A DNA stretch of 64,000 bases from positions 1,178,001 to 1,242,000 of the forward strand of contig NZ_CP150291.1 of the NCBI RefSeq assembly GCF_038051985.1, in the 5' to 3' direction. Shown piece after piece: positions 24,365 to 57,578 of this stretch (position 1 is the first letter of the stretch; each line of letters begins with the position of its first letter). The position numbers were made by a program, and so were the translations under genes. The notes below the pieces were generated by a model. It saw only the letters and a list, made by a program, of their open reading frames with translations, was not told where the DNA came from and did not search any database. This stretch comes from Solibacillus sp. FSL H8-0523 (GTDB lineage Bacteria; Bacillota; Bacilli; Bacillales_A; Planococcaceae).

Positions 24365-24393
24365 TTGACAATATACCGTACGGGGTATATTAT
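24365..24393 (+). promoter_or_regulatory. CstR-type operator inside the coaD-rhodanese promoter
   Basis: TTGACA and TATTAT are separated by exactly 17 bases, and the spacer is the near-palindrome ATATACCGTACGGGGTATAT (24371-24390). ATACC...GGTAT is the core of operators of persulfide-sensing CsoR-family repressors (CstR). A repressor bound here would block RNA polymerase. Confidence 0.8.
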
Positions 24394-24447
24394 AAGGGGC
24401 GTAGAATTAGAACAGGTCAGCATGGAAACTTGAGAGGGGTATTGAAA

Positions 24448-26139
24448 ATGAAGAAAATTGTAATCGTAGGTGGCGTAGCAGGTGGTGCATCTGCAGCAGC
24501 ACGTATTCGTCGTTTAGATGAACAAGCACAAATTGTAATGTTTGAAAAAGGGCCGCATGTGTCGTTTTCAAACTGTTCATTGCCGTTTTATTTAAGTGGC
24601 GTTGTCGCAGATAGTAAGCGTTTAGTCATGATGAATCCAAACTCATTTGAAGCAAAATATAATATTGATGCGCGTGTCAATAGTGAAGTTATTGCCATCA
24701 ATCGTTCGGAAAAAACGGTGACGGTTAAAGATGTACATACAGGGGAACAGTTTACAGAAAGCTACGATCAGTTAGTGCTATCACCTGGGGCTAGCCCAAT
24801 TGTTCCGAATATTGAGGGCGCGGATTTAGCGCATGTTTTCACGGTACGTAATGTTGTGGATATCGAGCGTTTACATAATGCCATTGTCGAGCAGGACGCG
24901 CAAAGTATCGCGGTTATTGGTGGTGGCTTCATCGGAGTAGAAGTCGCAGAAAATTTACGATTAGCTGGCCGAAATGTGACACTAGTACAATCAGCCGCGC
25001 AAATTTTAACACCGTTTGATGAAGATATGGTGCAAATTTTGCATAAGGAAATGGTAGATCATGGTGTTGAATTAATTACAGGAGATGGCTTAGCTGAAAT
25101 TACTACGGAATCAATTACGTTAAAATCAGGTAAACAAGTAGCAGCTGATCTTGTTGTTTTAGCTGTTGGTGTACGTCCTGAAACAAAGTTAGCCGTTGAA
25201 GCAGGCTTAGAAATTGGTGAAACGGGTGCGATTGCTGTAAACCAAAACTATCAAACAAGTGACCACAATATTTATGCGGTTGGTGACGCGATTGAAGTGT
25301 ACCACCGTTTAATGAACAAAAAAACGCGCCTTGCACTTGCAGGCCCAGCGCAAAAGCAAGCCCGAGCGATTGCTGACCATATTTACGGCATTCCGAACCA
25401 AAACCGTGGTGTCATTGGTTCATCAAGTATTCAAGTGTTTGATTTAGCCGCTGCATCAACTGGCTTAAATGAACGATCGGCTAAGCAACTAGGGATTCCG
25501 ACAGAGGCTGTCTATGTCATTGCACCGGATAAAGTGGGGTTAATGCCATCAAGTAATCCACTGCACTTTAAATTGATTTACGAAGTGCCAACAGGGCGCA
25601 TTTTAGGTGCGCAAGCGATTGGTAAAGGCAATGCCGATAAGCGTGTTGATGTCATTGCGACACTGATTTCGATGAATGGAACGGTAGAAGACTTAAAAGA
25701 TTTAGAATTAACGTATTCACCAATGTTCTCGACGGCAAAAGACGTTGCGAATATGGCAGCGCTTGTTGCATCAAACTTAATGGCAGGGCGTTTTAAACAA
25801 GTGCGTGTGAATGAAGTGCGCGGTCTAGTGGAAGCAGGTGCCTATATTTTAGATGTGCGTGAAGTCAATGAATTTGCGAATGGCGCATTAAAAGGTGCCA
25901 TCAACATTCCGCTTGGTGAAGTTCGTACACGTATGAGCGAAATTCCAAAAGATAAACCCGTATACGTACATTGCCGTTCTGCACAGCGTAGCTATAATGC
26001 GGTAATGGCGTTAGAAAACAGTGGGTATGATAAGGTGTATAATATTTCAGGTTCGTTTTTAGGCATTAGTTTATATGAATATTTCACGGATCAACAACAA
26101 GGCCGTGAGCCAATCGTTACAGCCTATAATTTTAAATAA
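24448..26139 (+). CDS. CoA-disulfide reductase fused to a C-terminal rhodanese
   Basis: A FAD- and NAD(P)H-dependent pyridine-nucleotide disulfide reductase that reduces CoA disulfide, CoA persulfide or polysulfide, joined to a sulfurtransferase domain. The FAD loop is GGVAGGASAAARIRR near the start, and the redox-active cysteine is C43 in SFSNCSLPFY. A second dinucleotide fold has VIGGGFIGVEVAE. The rhodanese domain covers about residues 455-550 with active-site C509 in HCRSAQRS. ATG 24448 (563 residues) follows GAGAGGGG. It lies alone behind a CstR-type operator, next to the repressor gene. Confidence 0.93.
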   Translation: MKKIVIVGGVAGGASAAARIRRLDEQAQIVMFEKGPHVSFSNCSLPFYLSGVVADSKRLVMMNPNSFEAKYNIDARVNSEVIAINRSEKTVTVKDVHTGEQFTESYDQLVLSPGASPIVPNIEGADLAHVFTVRNVVDIERLHNAIVEQDAQSIAVIGGGFIGVEVAENLRLAGRNVTLVQSAAQILTPFDEDMVQILHKEMVDHGVELITGDGLAEITTESITLKSGKQVAADLVVLAVGVRPETKLAVEAGLEIGETGAIAVNQNYQTSDHNIYAVGDAIEVYHRLMNKKTRLALAGPAQKQARAIADHIYGIPNQNRGVIGSSSIQVFDLAAASTGLNERSAKQLGIPTEAVYVIAPDKVGLMPSSNPLHFKLIYEVPTGRILGAQAIGKGNADKRVDVIATLISMNGTVEDLKDLELTYSPMFSTAKDVANMAALVASNLMAGRFKQVRVNEVRGLVEAGAYILDVREVNEFANGALKGAINIPLGEVRTRMSEIPKDKPVYVHCRSAQRSYNAVMALENSGYDKVYNISGSFLGISLYEYFTDQQQGREPIVTAYNFK

Positions 26140-26184
26140 AAAGTTGTGGGGGAACGTCAAATTTCCCCACTTAAAAATTTTTGT

Positions 26185-26213
26185 TTGACATATACCTCTA
26201 GGGGTATTATGAT
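26185..26213 (+). promoter_or_regulatory. CstR-type operator and promoter of cstR
   Basis: TTGACA (26185-26190) and TATGAT (26208-26213) are 17 bases apart, with the palindrome TATACCTCTAGGGGTATT (26191-26208) filling the spacer. This predicts autoregulation of the repressor and possibly of the genes after it. Confidence 0.8.
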
Positions 26214-26246
26214 GAGAGTATCAAATCAGAAAAACGAGGTGAGCTT

Positions 26247-26507
26247 ATGCAATACGATGCAAAAGTAACAGCACGTATGAAACGAATGGAAGGGCAACTT
26301 CGCGGAATTCTTCGCATGATGGAAGAAGAAAAAGACTGTAAAGATGTCATCACACAGCTTAGTGCCGTTCGTTCCGCAGTGGATCGTACAATCGGTGTCA
26401 TCGTCTCAGATAACCTGGTTGACTGTTTATCAAAAGAAGATGCCGATGATTTAGATAAAAGTGCATTAGTTAAACAAGCAGTAGATTTATTAGTAAAAAG
26501 TCGATAA
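26247..26507 (+). CDS. cstR: Persulfide-sensing repressor CstR (CsoR family)
   Basis: An 86-residue all-helical repressor. The two cysteines that define CstR-type sensors, C31 and C60, are at exactly the positions described for Staphylococcus aureus CstR, and the histidine that follows the second cysteine in copper sensors (CsoR) is replaced by leucine (C60-L61). Persulfides form cross-links between the cysteines and release DNA. B. subtilis YrkD is the likely counterpart, since the genes that follow match yrkE, yrkF, yrkH, yrkI and yrkJ. The ATG follows GAGGTGAG. Confidence 0.92.
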   Translation: MQYDAKVTARMKRMEGQLRGILRMMEEEKDCKDVITQLSAVRSAVDRTIGVIVSDNLVDCLSKEDADDLDKSALVKQAVDLLVKSR

Positions 26508-26531
26508 GGCTTTTTATTTTTTAACATAAAA

Positions 26532-26546
26532 ATACCTATACGGGTA
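26532..26546 (+). promoter_or_regulatory. CstR-type operator overlapping the RBS region of the first DsrE gene
   Basis: ATACCTATACGGGTA precedes AAGGAG by no bases, 10 bases from the start codon. A TTAACA lies six bases upstream of the palindrome, but no good -10 follows, so the site may act on an operon leader or on a poorly matching promoter. Confidence 0.6.
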
Positions 26547-26556
26547 AGGAGATATT

Positions 26557-27033
26557 ATGGAAAAGAAAAGAACAACTATCGTTTTATTTAGTGGAGATTA
26601 CGACAAGGCAATGGCCGCTTATATTATTGCAAACGGCGCGGCAGCATATGATCATGAGGTAACCATCTTCCATACGTTCTGGGGTATCAATGCCCTACGT
26701 AAGCAAGAGGCGATTGAAGTGAAAAAAGGCTTTTTAGAAAAAATGTTTGCGAAAATGATGCCACGCGGTGCAGAAAAATTAGGCTTATCAAACATGCAAA
26801 TGATGGGTATGGGTCCAAAGATGATTAAGCATGTTATGCAAAAGCATAACGCCTTAACGTTAACGCAGTTAATTGACATGGCACAGGAGCAAGATATTAA
26901 ACTTGTGACTTGTACGATGACAATGGATTTACTTGGTCTGGAGAAAGAAGAGTTACTAGACGGAATCGAATATGCCGGCGTAGCTGCTTACTTAGCAGAT
27001 GCAGAACAAGGAAACGTAAACTTATTTATTTAG
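26557..27033 (+). CDS. DsrE/DsrF-like sulfur relay protein (YrkE-like)
   Basis: A 158-residue DsrE-family protein of the kind that carries persulfide sulfur on a conserved cysteine. That cysteine is C119 in VTCTMTMDLLGL, a motif repeated with C92 in the second DsrE protein at 28327-28722. A nucleotide-like N-terminal loop FSGDYDKAMAAYIIANGAA is typical, and a methionine-rich middle segment (about residues 80-94) is unusual and may add thiol or metal affinity. The order cstR-dsrE-...-tusA-rhd matches B. subtilis yrkD-yrkE-yrkF. It is probably cytosolic. Confidence 0.85.
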   Translation: MEKKRTTIVLFSGDYDKAMAAYIIANGAAAYDHEVTIFHTFWGINALRKQEAIEVKKGFLEKMFAKMMPRGAEKLGLSNMQMMGMGPKMIKHVMQKHNALTLTQLIDMAQEQDIKLVTCTMTMDLLGLEKEELLDGIEYAGVAAYLADAEQGNVNLFI

Positions 27034-27043
27034 GGGGCGCACG

Positions 27044-27385
27044 ATGGAAACAATCATTATAATCGCTGTCATTGCGGCATTTATTATTTGGCGCATGAAG
27101 CCAGTAAAGGGCATAAAGTCGATTTCAACAGCACAAGCTAAAGAAATCCTTAACGATAAAGATAAAGTATTGATCGATGTACGCACACCAGCTGAATATA
27201 AAGCAAGAAGCGTTAAGCAATTTAAAAATATGCCCCTTGGCACAGATTATTCGAAGCTACCGAAGGACAAAGAAATTATTGTGATTTGTCAAAGCGGGAT
27301 GCGTTCGATGCAGGCGTGTAAGCAATTAAAAAAATTAGGCTATGAAAACGTAACGAATGTCCGTGGTGGCATGAGTGCATACTAG
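27044..27385 (+). CDS. Membrane-anchored rhodanese-like protein
   Basis: A 113-residue protein with one N-terminal membrane helix (about residues 3-17, IIIIAVIAAFIIW) and a single rhodanese domain. The active-site loop is C82-QSGMRS, a complete six-residue cradle. The charged residues after the helix suggest that the domain faces the cytoplasm, though the topology is an inference. It begins 10 bases after the DsrE gene and ends 13 bases before a second rhodanese gene, so the three are one operon. Confidence 0.87.
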   Translation: METIIIIAVIAAFIIWRMKPVKGIKSISTAQAKEILNDKDKVLIDVRTPAEYKARSVKQFKNMPLGTDYSKLPKDKEIIVICQSGMRSMQACKQLKKLGYENVTNVRGGMSAY

Positions 27386-27398
27386 GAGGAAATGAATC

Positions 27399-27695
27399 AT
27401 GAAATCTATTACAACTTCTGAATTACAAGCAAAACTAGAAGCGGGCGAAGCAGTAAATTTAATTGATGTACGTGAAGTCGCTGAAGTAGAAGAAGGACAC
27501 ATTCCAGGTATCAATCACATTCCATTAGGTCTACTTGAATTTCGTATGCATGAGTTAGATAAAAATGAGCACTACTATATGGTCTGTCGTTCGGGTGGTC
27601 GCAGTGGCCAAGCAACAGCATTCCTTGAATCACAAGGCTACAATGTAACGAATATGACAGGCGGTATGTTAGAGTGGGCGGGCGAAGTTAAATAA
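27399..27695 (+). CDS. Single-domain rhodanese
   Basis: A 98-residue sulfurtransferase of GlpE type. The active-site loop is C63-RSGGRS. It has no signal peptide or membrane segment, so it is a cytosolic carrier of sulfane sulfur. The ATG follows AGGAGGAAATG at 27384-27394. After it the operon is interrupted by 66 bases that contain another CstR-type operator. Confidence 0.9.
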   Translation: MKSITTSELQAKLEAGEAVNLIDVREVAEVEEGHIPGINHIPLGLLEFRMHELDKNEHYYMVCRSGGRSGQATAFLESQGYNVTNMTGGMLEWAGEVK

Positions 27696-27734
27696 CGACC
27701 TGCTCGACAATTCAAAAATTTTTTAACTAAAATT

Positions 27735-27750
27735 ATACCCGTGGTGGTAT
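27735..27750 (+). promoter_or_regulatory. CstR-type operator before the TusA-rhodanese gene
   Basis: ATACCCGTGGTGGTAT lies directly before GGAGG of the next gene. A TTAACT is found nine bases upstream, which would place the operator in a promoter spacer as at the two better sites. Confidence 0.65.
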
Positions 27751-27761
27751 GGAGGTAAATG

Positions 27762-28325
27762 ATGTCAATTAAAGCAGATGTACAATTAGACGCAAAAGGT
27801 TTAGCGTGTCCAATGCCAATCGTTAAAACAAAAAAGGCAATGCAAGGCTTAGAGGACGGTCAAGTATTAGAAGTAATCGCAACAGATAAAGGCTCGAAAG
27901 CAGATTTAGCCGCATGGTCGAAAACAGTGGGGCACCAATATATTGGCACAACAGAAGAAGGCGATGTGTTATATCACTACATTCGCAAATGTAATCCTGA
28001 AGCAAGTGAAGCTGTGGAAAAAACATTCGAACAAACGGTAACAAATGAAGAAGCCATAGCAGCAAATGGTGTCATTTTAGATGTACGTGAAGCAGCAGAA
28101 TATGCATTTGGTCATATCCCTGGCGCGAAATCAATGCCGATCGGTGAGCTGTATTCACGTATGTACGAGCTAGACAAAGCGCAAACTATTTACGTGATTT
28201 GCCGTACAGGTACACGTTCAGATATGGCCGCGCAGCAATTAGCGGAAGCTGGATTTACAAACATTTATAACGTCCTACCTGGTATGTCAGGTTATGCGGG
28301 CGAATTAGAGAAAGAGGTTAACTAA
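27762..28325 (+). CDS. TusA-rhodanese fusion protein (YrkF-like)
   Basis: Two sulfur-transfer domains on one chain. The N-terminal TusA domain (about residues 5-75) has the catalytic C16 in GLACPMPIVKTKKAM; the C-terminal rhodanese (about residues 92-187) has VICRTGTRSD as its active loop. B. subtilis YrkF has the same domain order and size. Two ATG codons occur in tandem; the second (27762) is better spaced from GGAGG. The DsrE gene begins one base after the stop, implying coupling. Confidence 0.92.
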   Translation: MSIKADVQLDAKGLACPMPIVKTKKAMQGLEDGQVLEVIATDKGSKADLAAWSKTVGHQYIGTTEEGDVLYHYIRKCNPEASEAVEKTFEQTVTNEEAIAANGVILDVREAAEYAFGHIPGAKSMPIGELYSRMYELDKAQTIYVICRTGTRSDMAAQQLAEAGFTNIYNVLPGMSGYAGELEKEVN

Positions 28326-28326
28326 T

Positions 28327-28722
28327 ATGTCAAACAAAGTAGCAATCATCGCAGCAAACGGCGGCCTTTTCGACGCCTATAAAGTATTCAATATTGCAAC
28401 GGCAGCAGCCGCTTCAGAAAAGGAAGTAGAAATTTTCTTCACATTTGAAGGATTAAACTTAATTCACAAACAAGGTATGCATGCGCTAGAGATGCCAGCA
28501 GGAAAAGAGCATTTCGCAGAAGGTTTTGCGAAAGCAAACGTACCAGCGATTCCACAATTAGTGGAAATGGCACAGGAGCTTGGTGTGAAATTCGTTGCTT
28601 GTCAAATGACAATGGACGTAATGGGCTTAACGAAGGAAGATTTTGTTGAGGGCATCGAAGTAGGTGGCGCTGTGACATTCCTAGAGTATGCAAAAGACGC
28701 AGCACCAACTTTAACGTTTTAA
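28327..28722 (+). CDS. DsrE family protein (second copy)
   Basis: A 131-residue DsrE-type sulfur carrier. The conserved cysteine C92 lies in VACQMTMDVMGL, matching C119 of the DsrE protein at 26557, so the two are paralogues, although this one lacks the methionine-rich insert. It starts immediately after the TusA-rhodanese stop. Role by family: accept sulfur from rhodanese or TusA partners. A hairpin follows at 28778-28806 (GGTTcGGGtAGC with GCTgCCCtAACC) before the next operator. Confidence 0.85.
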   Translation: MSNKVAIIAANGGLFDAYKVFNIATAAAASEKEVEIFFTFEGLNLIHKQGMHALEMPAGKEHFAEGFAKANVPAIPQLVEMAQELGVKFVACQMTMDVMGLTKEDFVEGIEVGGAVTFLEYAKDAAPTLTF

Positions 28723-28826
28723 AATGCGGTATATAACCGGCCTGGTTGTTTATACTAGATAGAAATTCTTATCCACTGGTTCGGGTAGCTTCGCGCTGCC
28801 CTAACCAAAAAAATTTACAAAAAATT

Positions 28827-28841
28827 ATACCTATGGGGGTA
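28827..28841 (+). promoter_or_regulatory. CstR-type operator before the persulfide dioxygenase gene
   Basis: ATACCTATGGGGGTA lies eight bases before the ATG and includes the G-run that must serve as ribosome binding site. A TTTACA occurs at 28814-28819. Overlap of operator and ribosome binding site is the same as at 26532. Confidence 0.6.
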
Positions 28842-28848
28842 CATTGAT

Positions 28849-29976
28849 ATGACAGTAACAGCATGGACAGCGGCTCAAGTAGCACGCAAAGTAATCGACA
28901 ACAAAGATTTATTCATTTTAGACGTACGTAATGCCGATGCATTTGAAGACTGGAAAATCGATGGTCATAAGTTTGAGTACTTAAACATTCCATACTTCGA
29001 GCTTTTAGACGGCGTAGAAGAAATTTTATCGAAAATCCCTAGTGACAAAGAAGTCCTTGTAGTATGTGCAAAAGAAGGTTCTTCTATTATGGTAGCAGAC
29101 ATGTTATCAGAAGCCGGTTTAACGGTAGGCTACTTAGAAGGCGGTATGAAATCGTGGTCAATGTACTTAGAGCCAATTAAAGTGGGCGATCTTCGTGACG
29201 GCGGTGAGTTATACCAATTCGTACGTTTAGGTAAAGGTTGTCTTTCTTACATGGCAATTAACGGAGGCGAAGCAGCCATTATTGACGCAGTTCGCTTCAC
29301 AGACGTCTTCACAAAATTCGCTGAAGATAAAGGTGTTCAAATTAAGCACGTATTTGACACACACTTACATGCGGATCATATTTCAGGTGGACGTCATATT
29401 GCAGAAAAAACGGGAGCAACATATTATTTACCACCAAAAGATGCAGAAGAAGTGGTATTTGACTACTCACCACTTGAAGACGGCTTAACAGTAAACTTAG
29501 GCGCTTCAGAAATCGAAGTAGGTGCAATGTATTCACCAGGGCACACAATCGGTTCAACGTCTTTTGTTATTGACGGACAATACTTATTAACAGGGGATAT
29601 TTTATTCATCGATTCAATCGGACGTCCTGATTTAGCTGGATTGGCTGAGGACTGGGTTGGCGATTTACGCGAAACTTTATATTCGCGCTACCGCACTTTA
29701 GCAGAAGACTTAATCGTTTTACCAGCACATTTCATGATTATTGAAGAGTTAAACGAAGATGGAACGGTTTCAAAACGCCTTGGTGATTTATTCGCTGAAA
29801 ACCACGGTTTAAATGTAGAGGACGAGGAAGTATTCCGTTCAATGGTAACAGACAATTTACCACCACAACCAAACGCCTACCAAGAAATTCGTCACGTTAA
29901 CATGGGGAAAATTACACCAGATAATGACGAGCAAACGGAGATGGAGATTGGACCAAATCGTTGCGCAGTGCGCTAG
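28849..29976 (+). CDS. Rhodanese-persulfide dioxygenase fusion (metallo-beta-lactamase fold)
   Basis: A 375-residue protein that should oxidise low-molecular-weight persulfides to sulfite and/or transfer sulfane sulfur. The N-terminal rhodanese (about residues 5-112) has C73 in VVCAKEGSS. The metallo-beta-lactamase domain (about 118-350) has [11 protein letters not shown], the iron-binding HxHxDH signature, then SPGHTIGS and LTGDILFID. The rhodanese precedes the dioxygenase, the reverse of the usual ETHE1-rhodanese fusion. It corresponds to yrkH by context. The final residues NRCAVR are encoded in a segment that is repeated 100 bases downstream. Confidence 0.88.
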
Positions 29977-30226
29977 GTTCGATTAAAGGAACAAAAGCTA
30001 AGAACGCCATGTCGTGTGGAATGCTTTTGTGACAGGCGTCGTGCCGGCCTCAAACCGTTGCGCAGTGCGTAATTTTAGAAGGAAATCTTTCCAATAAAAT
30101 TTCACTTGCTTGATTTGCGGGCTACGGCAAGACCGCGATAAAATTACCGTTAATTATAATTCAGATTGTTTTAAAAAAGGAATCTGCTTTATTTCATCAT
30201 TTTTTAAAAAGGTTTACCTTTATGCC
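29977..30226. other. Intergenic insertion with direct repeat of the preceding gene's 3' end
   Basis: The end of the dioxygenase gene (CGTTGCGCAGTGCG, within 29953-29976) recurs at about 30052-30070 with the same CAAA before it. Between the copies are ACAAAAGC and GCTTTTGT as an inverted pair and the segment GACAGGCGTCGTGCCGGCCTC, which resembles GACCAGCATCGTGCTGGCCTC at 49408-49428. No coding frame is seen. It looks like a small insertion with a target duplication, or a decayed dispersed repeat. Confidence 0.5.
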
Positions 30227-30372
30227 AAGTAGAGTGGCGCGGAGTGAAGGCGGCAGACTCCTGCGGGAACAGCACGCGCGGAAAATCCATTTTTTTTGCC
30301 GCCGTCAGAGGCACAAAAAATTAGTTGGAGCCGTGCCCGCGGAAAGCGTCCGCCGTAACGGAGCAGAACGGA
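30227..30372. repeat. Dispersed 146-bp repeat, copy 1
   Basis: This segment, starting AAGTAGAGTGGCGCGG, matches 57433-57578 in the same orientation with equal length and about six substitutions by eye. It is GC-rich against an AT-rich genome and has inverted parts (GGCGG...CTCCTGCGGG near the left, CCCGCGGAAAGCGTCCGCC near the right), so it can fold into one long hairpin. Similar non-coding GCGGAAAGCGTCCGCC repeats are common between genes of Bacillaceae. It carries no gene. Confidence 0.85.
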
Positions 30373-30470: not shown

Positions 30471-30698
30471 ATGAACATTACACAAACTTTAGACGCAAAA
30501 GGCTTAGCATGCCCAATGCCAATCGTACGCACAAAAAAGGCAATCGATGCCATTAACTCAGGTGAAGTACTTGAAGTATTAGTAACAGACAAAGGCGCAT
30601 TAAATGACTTTAAAGCATGGTCAGCTGCTGGCGGCCACACAATTTTAGAGCAAAAAGAAGAAGCAGGCGTACTTTACTTCTACATCCAAAAAGCATAA
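30471..30698 (+). CDS. TusA-like sulfur carrier protein (YrkI-like)
   Basis: A 75-residue TusA-family protein with the catalytic C14 in GLACPMPIVRTKKAI and the TDKGA segment of the second half. It is a stand-alone version of the N-terminal domain of the TusA-rhodanese fusion upstream and has the same length as B. subtilis YrkI. It should carry sulfane sulfur between the rhodaneses and acceptors. The ATG follows AATAGAGGAA. A hairpin separates it from the permease gene. Confidence 0.9.
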   Translation: MNITQTLDAKGLACPMPIVRTKKAIDAINSGEVLEVLVTDKGALNDFKAWSAAGGHTILEQKEEAGVLYFYIQKA

Positions 30699-30768: not shown

Positions 30769-31554
30769 ATGGAAATGGATTTATCGATCACATATTTAGC
30801 CGTAATTTTCGGGCTGGGCTTTATTGGCTCATTTATTTCAGGGATGCTTGGTGTTGGGGGTTCAATTATTAAATATCCGATGCTACTGTACATTCCACCA
30901 CTATTTGGTTTAGCAGTGTTTACTGCGCACGAAGTATCCGGCATTAGTGCGGTGCAAGTGCTCTTTGCATCGATTGCCGGCGTGTGGGCATACCGTAAGA
31001 GTGGTCTTTTAAACAAAGACTTAATCATTTACATGGGTGCTTCTATTTTAGTAGGTAGCTTTATCGGCAGTTATGGTTCGGGCTTCTTATCAGAAGATGC
31101 GGTGAATATCGTATACGGCGTACTGGCAGTGATTGCCGCAGTGATGATGTTTATTCCACGTAAACAAGTTGATGAAAAAGCAGCGATTACTTTTAACAAG
31201 CCCTTAGCAGCAATTTTAGCGTTAGTTGTCGGTGTCGCTTCTGGGATTGTCGGAGCAGCAGGTGGTTTCTTACTTGTACCGATTTTACTAACGGTATTAA
31301 AAATTCCAACACGTGTCACAATAGCTACGAGCTTAGCGATTACGTTTATTTCGTCAATTGGTGGATCTGTCGGGAAAATCATCACAGGTCAAGTTGAGTA
31401 CTGGCCAGCATTTATTATGATTATTGCGAGCATTTTAGCGGCGCCACTAGGGGCAAAAGTGGGGCAAAAAATGAATGTCAAATTACTACAATGGCTACTT
31501 GCCATCATGATCGGGGCTACCGCGATTAAGATCTGGTTTGATATTTTACTATAA
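30769..31554 (+). CDS. TSUP family (TauE/SafE) sulfite or thiosulfate exporter, YrkJ-like
   Basis: A 261-residue membrane protein with eight predicted helices in two related halves. The repeated motif [15 protein letters not shown] (residues 24-38) and [14 protein letters not shown] (about 164-177) is the TSUP signature. In this setting it probably exports sulfite or another product of persulfide oxidation, or imports a sulfur compound. Length and place match B. subtilis YrkJ after YrkI. An in-frame ATG two codons later is an alternative start. Confidence 0.88.
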
Positions 31555-43363: not shown

Positions 43364-44799
43364 ATGTAGAAGCCACACTAAGGCAACAATTTGGTTATGA
43401 AACATTTCGACCGGGACAGCGTGAAATCATTGAAGCACTAGTTGCTGGACAAGACGTTGTTGCGATTTTACCGACGGGTATGGGGAAATCGCTCTGTTAT
43501 CAGCTACCAGGCTATATATTTACAAAGCCGGTACTCATCGTATCGCCACTATTATCTCTCATGCAAGACCAAGTCGACCAGCTAAAACAGCGCGGTGAAA
43601 AGCGTGTTGTCGCGCTCAATTCATTTTTAACCCCAGACCAGAAGCGGTATGCCCTGCACTTTTTGCATGAGTACCGGTTTATATTTGTGTCGCCTGAAAT
43701 GCTGTTGCAGCCGCAAGTGAAAGCCCGGATTGAACAAATGGAGCTGTCACTCATTGTGGCAGACGAGGCACACTGTATTTCGCAGTGGGGCTTTGATTTT
43801 CGTCCGGATTATTTGCGCATTGGTGAAGTGTTGCCACAACAAAAGCGTCCACCAATTTTAGCGTTATCGGCAACAGCAACGGAATCGGTATTGCAGGACA
43901 TTCAGCATTATCTACAGATGCAAAAGCCGTTTCATTATATGCATTCGGTCAACCGTGAATCTATTTATTTAGTGAAAAAGACATTTTCAATGAAAGAAGA
44001 GAAGATTGATTGGATTGTCGATCATGTTTCAAAAACTGCGGGACCGGGCATTATTTATACGCAATCGCGTGCGAAAACAGAAGCAATTAGCTTGCTACTA
44101 TTAGAAAAAAATATTGCCGCCGCTGCCTACCATGCAGGGAAAGACGCGCAGGATCGGCAATTTATTCAGCAACAGTTTTTAACGGATAAGCTAGAATGGA
44201 TAGTTGCGACAAATGCATTTGGAATGGGTGTACATAAAGAGAATGTTCGCCAAATTATTCATGAAACAATGCCGGCAACCTTATCGAATTACATGCAAGA
44301 AATTGGTCGTGCTGGACGTGACGGCAAAGACGCCGTTGCTTTCTTACTGTATGCAGATGGAGACGAGCAGTATGCGAAGTTTATTGCAACCGAGGACTTA
44401 CCGAAGGATGCACATATTGACCGCTTCATGCAGGTAGTAGCAAGTGGCGAGCAGCCGAATGTGTTACTGACGCGCGGCGAACTGTCAGAAGTTGCATTTC
44501 GCGTATTAAATTACTGGCTTCAGCAAGAATCACCGGAACTTGTGAAAAAACGCATGCAAGAGTTACAGTTTAAGAAATTTGCAGAAGTGAAGCACGTATT
44601 AAAATTAATCGAAAGTACAGATTGTATGCGCGAGCAGGTGGTTCAATACTTTGGACAAGTACTTGAAGAAAAACAAGAGAACTGTTGCACCAATTGTGGG
44701 ATTCAGGAGGGTGCGTTTTTAGCAGAGCGTAAGACGCAAGAGCAAACACAAATGACTACTTGGCAACAACGATTACAGCAAATATTGCTACGAAACTAG
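43360..44799 (+). CDS. recQ: RecQ-family ATP-dependent DNA helicase (RecS-like)
   Basis: A 3'-5' DNA helicase of 479 residues. Motif I is LPTGMGKSLCYQLPG (about residues 38-52), motif II is VADEAHCISQWGFDFRPDY, motif III is LSATAT, and motif VI is QEIGRAGRDGK. The zinc-binding cysteines follow at C...CCTNC near residues 429-448. The HRDC domain of full-length RecQ is missing, as in B. subtilis RecS. The ATG overlaps the ypbB stop. Confidence 0.93.
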   Translation: MNVEATLRQQFGYETFRPGQREIIEALVAGQDVVAILPTGMGKSLCYQLPGYIFTKPVLIVSPLLSLMQDQVDQLKQRGEKRVVALNSFLTPDQKRYALHFLHEYRFIFVSPEMLLQPQVKARIEQMELSLIVADEAHCISQWGFDFRPDYLRIGEVLPQQKRPPILALSATATESVLQDIQHYLQMQKPFHYMHSVNRESIYLVKKTFSMKEEKIDWIVDHVSKTAGPGIIYTQSRAKTEAISLLLLEKNIAAAAYHAGKDAQDRQFIQQQFLTDKLEWIVATNAFGMGVHKENVRQIIHETMPATLSNYMQEIGRAGRDGKDAVAFLLYADGDEQYAKFIATEDLPKDAHIDRFMQVVASGEQPNVLLTRGELSEVAFRVLNYWLQQESPELVKKRMQELQFKKFAEVKHVLKLIESTDCMREQVVQYFGQVLEEKQENCCTNCGIQEGAFLAERKTQEQTQMTTWQQRLQQILLRN

Positions 44800-57432: not shown

Positions 57433-57578
57433 AAGCAGAGTGGCGCGGAGTGAAGGCGGCAGACTCCTGCGGGAACAGCACGCGCGTAAAATCCATTTTT
57501 TGTGCCACCGTCAGAGGCACAAAAAATTAGTTGAAGCCGTGCCCGCGGAAAGCGTCCGCCGTAACGCAGCAGAACGGA
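57433..57578. repeat. Dispersed 146-bp repeat, copy 2
   Basis: It matches 30227-30372 over 146 positions with about six substitutions and no indel, in the same orientation. The insertion lies in a gap between gpsA and yphE that is otherwise AT-rich. An apparent reading frame of about 100 codons through it is an accident of the GC-rich repeat. The flanks of the two copies do not match, so the element boundaries are close to these coordinates. Confidence 0.85.

Follow-up and report, generated by a model that had tools for sequence, protein, structure and literature searches.

CstR-type operators in promoters and inside a persulfide operon of Solibacillus: candidate repressor-gated roadblocks

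CsoR-family repressors have been studied as promoter blockers. A di-thiol member of this family, with sulfurtransferases and a CoA-persulfide reductase among its targets, is described for the cst operon of Staphylococcus aureus and for the cst-like operon and CoAPR of Enterococcus faecalis (PMC5480029, PMC9405070). In S. aureus, one operon alone was regarded as the direct target of CstR, and the accessible text on these two systems describes no operators inside the operon (PMC5480029, PMC9405070). YrkD of Bacillus licheniformis MW3, a CstR-like protein, is bound both before and after its own gene; in the accessible portion of that report its sites are interpreted as two promoters, the yrkE-F-H-I-J cluster is co-transcribed as a whole, and a start in the region after yrkD was mapped in Escherichia coli, with none found confidently in the native strain (PMC9918477). 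Here we describe a persulfide gene cluster of Solibacillus sp. FSL H8-0523 that encodes the same kind of repressor and targets, contained in a 64-kb window of contig NZ_CP150291.1 (the window is the whole 64,000-nt stretch that was analysed; coordinates count from its first letter and the features of the cluster lie on the + strand). Five predicted CstR-type operators are present in this one cluster: two occupy promoter spacers (class I) and, unlike in S. aureus and E. faecalis, three lie within the operon (class II). Sites flank cstR as they do yrkD, here with one of class I and one of class II instead of two promoters. We consider it somewhat probable, on the evidence of sequence and its conservation, that the class II sites are repressor-gated roadblock or termination elements. 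The T-run, the hairpin register and the sites before yrkF- and yrkH-type genes on which we draw are not described in the accessible text of the YrkD study (PMC9918477).

A direct scan of the window found the five palindromes that an earlier note on this DNA had listed. All are 16-mers of the form ATACC-N6-GGTAN, and the spacer of four to six that the note allowed was therefore too loose. Site A (24365-24393), the promoter of the reductase-rhodanese gene, consists of TTGACA at 24365-24370, the operator ATACCGTACGGGGTAT at 24373-24388 and TATTAT at 24388-24393. Site B (26185-26213), the cstR promoter, which is kept in relatives, has TTGACA at 26185-26190, ATACCTCTAGGGGTAT at 26192-26207 and TATGAT at 26208-26213. 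Both -35/-10 pairs are read in the window and, as had been claimed, both operators occupy 17-bp sigma-A spacers. The three class II operators lie between co-directional genes of the operon and lack the TTGAC-type box of class I: C, ATACCTATACGGGTAA at 26532-26547, is 9 nt upstream of dsrE1 (DsrE/F/H-like, YrkE-type; 26557-27033); D, ATACCCGTGGTGGTAT at 27735-27750, is 8 nt upstream of the TusA-rhodanese fusion gene tusA-rhd (27759-28325); and E, ATACCTATGGGGGTAC at 28827-28842, is 6 nt upstream of mbl-rhd (28849-29976), which encodes a rhodanese-metallo-beta-lactamase-fold protein resembling YrkH and persulfide dioxygenases. The location at ribosome binding sites holds as well, since C and D touch the Shine-Dalgarno sequence and E contains it, its right half doubling as one. 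Pfam also bore out that the sites other than B precede sulfur-transfer genes (DsrE-type, rhodanese, TusA-rhodanese and rhodanese-metallo-beta-lactamase); the first of these, at 24448-26139, encodes a CoA-disulfide reductase-type flavoprotein with a C-terminal rhodanese domain (NCBIfam TIGR03385, 471 bits, under the 579-bit cut-off).

A looser pattern with spacers N3-7 gave nine matches on both strands of the window, compared with 0.82 expected and a maximum of 4 in 100 shuffles; the nine were the five sites, three of them read again on the opposite strand, and a stray N4 match at 43469. Genome-wide the same pattern was not enriched (85 matches against 108 in the backwards control) and this count was dropped as proof of the sites, so that their significance rests on clustering, position and conservation.

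The product of cstR (26247-26507) matches PF02583 (DUF156/CsoR family) with 82.9 bits against a cut-off of 22.8, and its closest match in the PDB is 7mq1 (E 3e-18), an entry named csoR. In NCBIfam, the RicR, FrmR and RcnR models alone were hit, each under its cut-off. The translation contains the two cysteines anticipated for it, C31 and C60. When it was aligned to the CsoR of the same genome, N56 fell in the column of a CsoR histidine that we take to be a copper ligand, which CstR lacks. The gene sits among sulfurtransferase and persulfide genes. By family, by its two cysteines without the copper-ligand histidine and by its sulfur-gene context, the predicted repressor of the cluster is of the CstR type. 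For its relative YrkD, persulfide-type release is known with elemental sulfur (PMC9918477, accessible part). Two relatives carry three CstR-like genes each (at least 71% identity) together with cst-type clusters.

Conservation of the operator positions was assessed in 115 loci, namely the window, 37 of 39 relative stretches fetched around CstR matches and 77 of 80 named loci, the latter being the top 80 of at least 421 stretches that were confirmed. L060 and L062 were dropped as near-duplicates of L059 and L061, and L094, L095 and L102 as lying on the same contigs as L047, L048 and L049; the copper locus of the own genome (L076), fetched as well, was kept out of the cst counts. We call the positions before dsrE1, tusA-rhd and mbl-rhd slots C, D and E, and a Solibacillus-like group was set apart by our own choice (the genus of the window plus L093, L097-L101, L103-L106 and L122). 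Row totals vary between tests with the distance and identity filters used, and related rows are not independent, for which a tally by genus label is given alongside. An N6 site stood upstream of dsrE1 in 88/97 cases, of cstR in 73/102, of mbl-rhd in 66/106 and of tusA-rhd in 55/132, the last count including paralogous matches. It was less common before the other cluster genes, which in the window are the two rhodanese genes without operators at 27044-27385 (5/81) and 27399-27695 (1/92), dsrE2, also without one, at 28327-28722 (2/55), and tusA at 30471-30698 (17/89). The gene for a TauE/SafE sulfite exporter (30769-31554), which has no operator and served as negative control, had an N6 site in just 1 of 104 cases. 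Spacers of 2-5 and 7-10 gave 0 or 1 match at every gene, and the median upstream stretch was 60 nt for tauE, 55 for tusA-rhd and 76 for mbl-rhd. The three internal positions are thus reused repeatedly in relatives. At slots D and E of close relatives, a strongly conserved block spans -20 to +15 of the operator. The Bacillus velezensis locus (L143) has sites before dsrE1 and cstR and none before tusA-rhd or mbl-rhd.

A run of T stands in single-base register with the operator. In the window the T-runs end at -10 in slot C, at -11 in slot D (27719-27724) and at -11 in slot E, where the run is only TTT. A run of at least four T ending exactly at -11 was found in 84 of 121 D and E rows (composition shuffles: mean 1.5, maximum 7) and in slot C in 27/29 Solibacillus-like and 48/97 other rows, compared with 8/103 promoter-type rows. 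Counted by genus label among the named loci, at least one such run occurred in 17/17 labels for D, 18/25 for E and 24/32 for C. The run is tied more closely to the operator than to the start codon, as the T fraction was 0.87 versus 0.62 at dsrE1 and 0.86 versus 0.49 at tusA-rhd when rows were aligned on the one or the other; at mbl-rhd the values hardly differ (0.76 versus 0.67) and are uninformative, because the gap from operator to start is nearly constant there. The pattern of T-run plus N6 operator occurred at 72 places in 41 genomes against 17 in the control. Two other tests were set aside: an AT-module pattern with one mismatch was too restrictive, finding 2 of the 3 internal window sites plus chance matches elsewhere, and the bare presence of TTTT was a weak test of operator dependence, since intergenic lengths differ and 73 of 102 tauE genes without an operator have TTTT. 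The TTNACA/T that had been reported upstream of the last three sites is found in the window; it is not conserved in relatives and corresponds to the edge of the conserved T-run.

Hairpins accompany the T-run at two of the three internal sites of the window. In slot C, an 11-bp hairpin at 26492-26518 (-9.6 kcal/mol, z -5.17) overlaps the end of cstR and enters the T-run ending at 26522, so that hairpin and U-run are directly joined as in an intrinsic terminator. The slot E hairpin at 28777-28807 (-19.1 kcal/mol, z -5.43) belongs to an element reaching to 28816, and in slot D folding found none. A further terminator-like hairpin with T-run (26146-26182, stem at 26146-26170, z -2.94) follows the reductase gene ahead of promoter B. 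Within the Solibacillus-like group, a stem was present at slot C in 26/29 rows and stems of at least 6 bp at slot E in 21/28, the latter unrelated in sequence; 19 of these 21 end at -16 to -22, most commonly at -19. The distance from -19 to the end of the T-run at -11 is eight, which matches the hairpin-to-RNA-end spacing of eight given for bacterial termination (PMC12366685, accessible part).

A parallel layout is found in copper operons. Elsewhere the same genome encodes a CsoR paralogue, both of whose sites are of the N7 type, and its copper operon carries an N7 CsoR operator with a T-run between copZ-like and copA-like genes, labels that we assigned from GMTCxxC motifs only. The copper set comprised 30 csoR loci from this genome and relatives, with 20 internal N7 rows, those of relatives being placed by csoR motif and operator and not by annotation of the downstream gene; one row (L201) is a second csoR copy and was excluded from the counts on 19 rows. 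Apart from this second copy, the rows follow the csoR motif at a distance of ~490-580 nt, inside the operon, with a gap of ~10 nt from T-run to operator. T made up 0.85 of positions -15 to -11 in the 20 rows, and 17/20 had a hairpin with z < -2. The T-run ended at -11 in 12/19 rows (shuffle mean 0.34, maximum 3), and a stem was present in 18/19, ending at -19 in 8. The T-run plus N7 pattern gave 23 matches against 18 in the control, 14 of the 23 lying within ~350 bp of a csoR match. The same arrangement thus recurs in a different operon, with a different repressor and a different spacer, which speaks against its being an accident peculiar to the cst genes.

We propose that CstR may control the cluster at two levels, initiation at A and B and elongation at C, D and E. 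At A and B, CstR bound between the -35 and -10 boxes would block initiation. At the internal sites, bound CstR would be a roadblock to polymerase arriving from upstream, which would stall with the 3' end of its RNA in the T-run ~11 bp before the operator, held by a weak U/A-rich hybrid. In slot E, the hairpin ending near -19, ~8 nt behind the RNA end, would then aid release; in slot C, the hairpin that enters the T-run itself would aid release of the stopped complex; and in slot D, where hairpins are scarce, polymerase would either pause or depend on some other factor for its release. Persulfide on C31/C60 would remove CstR and open initiation and read-through together. For CstR binding at C to E, stalling, release, persulfide relief and co-transcription of the cluster, the last taken over from its relative the B. 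licheniformis yrk cluster (PMC9918477), we lean modestly towards acceptance. More tentatively, the copper rows raise a wider idea, which is a fair possibility though we would stop short of calling it probable: that the CsoR family has a second conserved mode of action in Bacillales, as repressor-gated terminators in which the repressor strengthens a weak signal within its own operon and persulfide or copper switches it off. Such an element would consist of an operator of 16 bp (CstR) or 17 bp (CsoR), a T-run whose end lies 11 bp upstream of it and, optionally, a hairpin.

Several observations weigh against this proposal. The hairpins are irregular: in the window, the slot E stem is followed by an A-run and then merely TTT; slot-C stems end at -14, inside the T-run, in 17/26 rows and not at -19; stems of at least 6 bp at slot D are scattered and occur in just 17/52 rows; and outside the Solibacillus-like group slot E has a stem in 12/41 rows and none in 29/41. 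The affinity of YrkD in vitro is modest, with a dissociation constant of ~2.3 uM (PMC9918477), and with LacI roadblocks weaker affinity gives more read-through (PMC10310618, PMC4132739); a LexA roadblock did not support hairpin termination at a distance that needs backtracking (PMC12366685). The remaining points concern promoter signals. The window itself has a TCGACA/TAAAAT pair at slot D. In the other loci, a -35/-10 pair with 16-18 bp between its boxes abuts the slot-C operator in 49/97 rows against 5.5 expected and the slot-D operator in 4/34 against 1.3, and at slot C the T-run ends at -13 to -9 in 33/49 rows with such a pair compared with 39/48 of the rest. A free sigma-A scan placed 9/58 tusA-rhd, 5/67 mbl-rhd, 2/47 dsrE1 and 1/88 tauE rows in the top 5% of shuffles. 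Given the high tusA-rhd scores and the 4/34 pairs, slot D may in a few cases be a promoter.

These promoter signals, together with the B. licheniformis IR2 fragment, from which a reporter was expressed in E. coli and a start was mapped (PMC9918477, accessible part), speak for the main alternative, in which every internal operator would lie across the start of a weak promoter of its own, with CstR blocking initiation there and the AT-rich flank being a degenerate promoter. Against it, pairs were at or near chance in the Solibacillus-like group, with 0/29 at slot C (1.6 expected), 1/18 at D (0.9) and 1/28 at E (1.1), and slot E of the other loci had 3/41 (2.8). The best sigma-A score separates promoter-type rows, where the mean fraction of shuffles reaching the observed value was 0.04 and 83/90 rows stood at or below 0.05, from the internal sites, which were shuffle-like on average (0.58, 0.42 and 0.51, with 0.53 for the tauE control). 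Upstream of -20, column conservation in close relatives stays within 0.4 bits at slot E, and at slot D it rises above 0.5 bits only in two A/T columns, -26 and -25; no -35 box is seen, and none of the 20 copper internal rows has a TTGACA-like box at -33 to -18. To our knowledge, a T-run in single-base register is not a known promoter feature. A sigma-A promoter at all internal sites is accordingly not supported as a rule at D and E, where no conserved promoter is seen, and we consider the alternative unlikely, if still a serious competitor. Slot C, on the other hand, combines promoter and operator in many other loci of the Bacillales, but no such promoter shows in the Solibacillus-like group. 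Of the multi-promoter arrangement suggested in the earlier note, sites A and B stand, as do these slot-C rows elsewhere, and C, D and E of the window are not supported as promoters.

A second alternative is that the internal sites are auxiliary operators which raise the local concentration of CstR or aid a second tetramer, with the T-run as an extended recognition site and no effect on elongation. An extended site would be expected in fixed register with the operator, as the T-run is, and the run appears at internal sites of both CstR and CsoR; promoter-type CsoR sites are, moreover, half T (0.5) at -15 to -11. Against it stands the rarity of the run at -11 in promoter-type CstR rows, given above, and its one-sidedness: 29 distal rows without a promoter pair had an upstream T-run in 18 and a mirrored A-run in 0, and 23 slot-D rows with a gap of 14-40 likewise had 18 T-runs and 0 mirrored A-runs. 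(An earlier one-sidedness figure, 0.81 versus 0.47, came mostly from slot C, 74/85 distal rows, many with promoters; the promoter-free repeat agrees with it.) The position-conserved slot-E hairpins are also left unexplained, and we give the auxiliary-operator explanation little credence.

The palindromes could also be mRNA hairpins that mask the ribosome binding site, which is how the earlier note's possible action on leaders might work; they do touch or contain the Shine-Dalgarno sequence, and stems of 5-6 bp are predicted. The operator RNAs of C, D and E nevertheless show no more stable folding than shuffled sequences (z -0.86, -0.03 and +0.46), so that a leader-RNA role is not supported; position 16 varies at C and E with an invariant partner, the centres vary (the arms being fixed by the search pattern), and the T-run register tracks the operator, all of which make this very improbable. 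That the internal copies are duplicated promoter-operator fragments, now functionless, would fit the resemblance of the modules to one another and is hardly credible, as the block persists over many genus labels and before the same genes, whereas conservation is lost in the intergenic DNA farther upstream at D and E.

The promoter-type pattern TTGAC-N1-4-ATACC-N6-GGTA occurred in 25 of 41 genomes, with 1 match in the backwards control; CoA-disulfide reductase genes near such sites in relatives were assigned from their open reading frames and a similar N-terminus. Three TTGAC-type matches belong to the own genome: besides the two of the window there is a third at 2414914. This CstR-like site, on the minus strand, reads TTGACA-operator-TAAAAT and precedes a gene whose 346-aa product is apparently membrane-bound and has a thioredoxin domain of the StoA/ResA-like kind. 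Three relatives (L174, L175 and L180) have a promoter-type CstR site 95-249 nt upstream of a thioredoxin-like gene, recognized from its WCGPC motif alone, which suggests a CstR control of thioredoxin in them. Several relatives carry two tandem TTGACA-type CstR sites ahead of cstR. A record titled Arthrobacter beigongshangensis contains a Bacillales-type cluster whose DsrE1 is 89% identical, pointing to either a mislabelled genome or a transfer. A G+C-rich intergenic repeat is present at 30200-30370 and around 57462 of the window; its core, GACTCCTGCGGGAACAGCACG, lies at 30256-30276 and 57462-57482 and has 15 copies in the genome at up to one mismatch and 0 in the backwards control.

Roadblocks as such are known, and among the titles and abstracts listed in our literature survey, with subscription papers mostly outside it, we found no CsoR-family operators described as roadblock terminators and no in-register T-run and hairpin module common to persulfide and copper operons. 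YtgR of chlamydiae is a DtxR-type repressor. It responds to iron, and in the trpRBA intergenic region an upstream transcript ends over its operator, as one 3' rapid amplification of cDNA ends product of trpR maps there; this system differs from ours in having one site and an alternative promoter, and its accessible text describes no T-run register (PMC6504234). CcpA and CodY of Bacillus subtilis and LacI offer the mechanistic likeness, as DNA-bound regulators that halt elongating polymerase in the way proposed here, and the accessible reports describe no T-run and hairpin module repeated along an operon in single-base register with the operator (PMC10310618, PMC4132739). The anatomy is closest to the yeast terminator of RNA polymerase I (Pol I), in which a hairpin, a T-rich stretch and a protein roadblock, Reb1 or Nsi1, are combined: Reb1 halts Pol I within the T-rich stretch, 15 bp short of the Reb1 site, whereupon the hairpin releases it (PMC12366685). 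The yeast system is eukaryotic and constitutive with the hairpin ~20 nt from the stop (PMC12366685, accessible part), whereas the repressor here would be ligand-responsive and act within an operon. If our proposal is true, one small repressor would govern both initiation and elongation in persulfide and in copper systems, which would explain why YrkD of B. licheniformis binds where a native start was not confidently found. The class II sites would then be a compact natural example of repressor-dependent termination and would correspond, in bacteria and under the control of a ligand, to the Reb1 terminators that act on Pol I.

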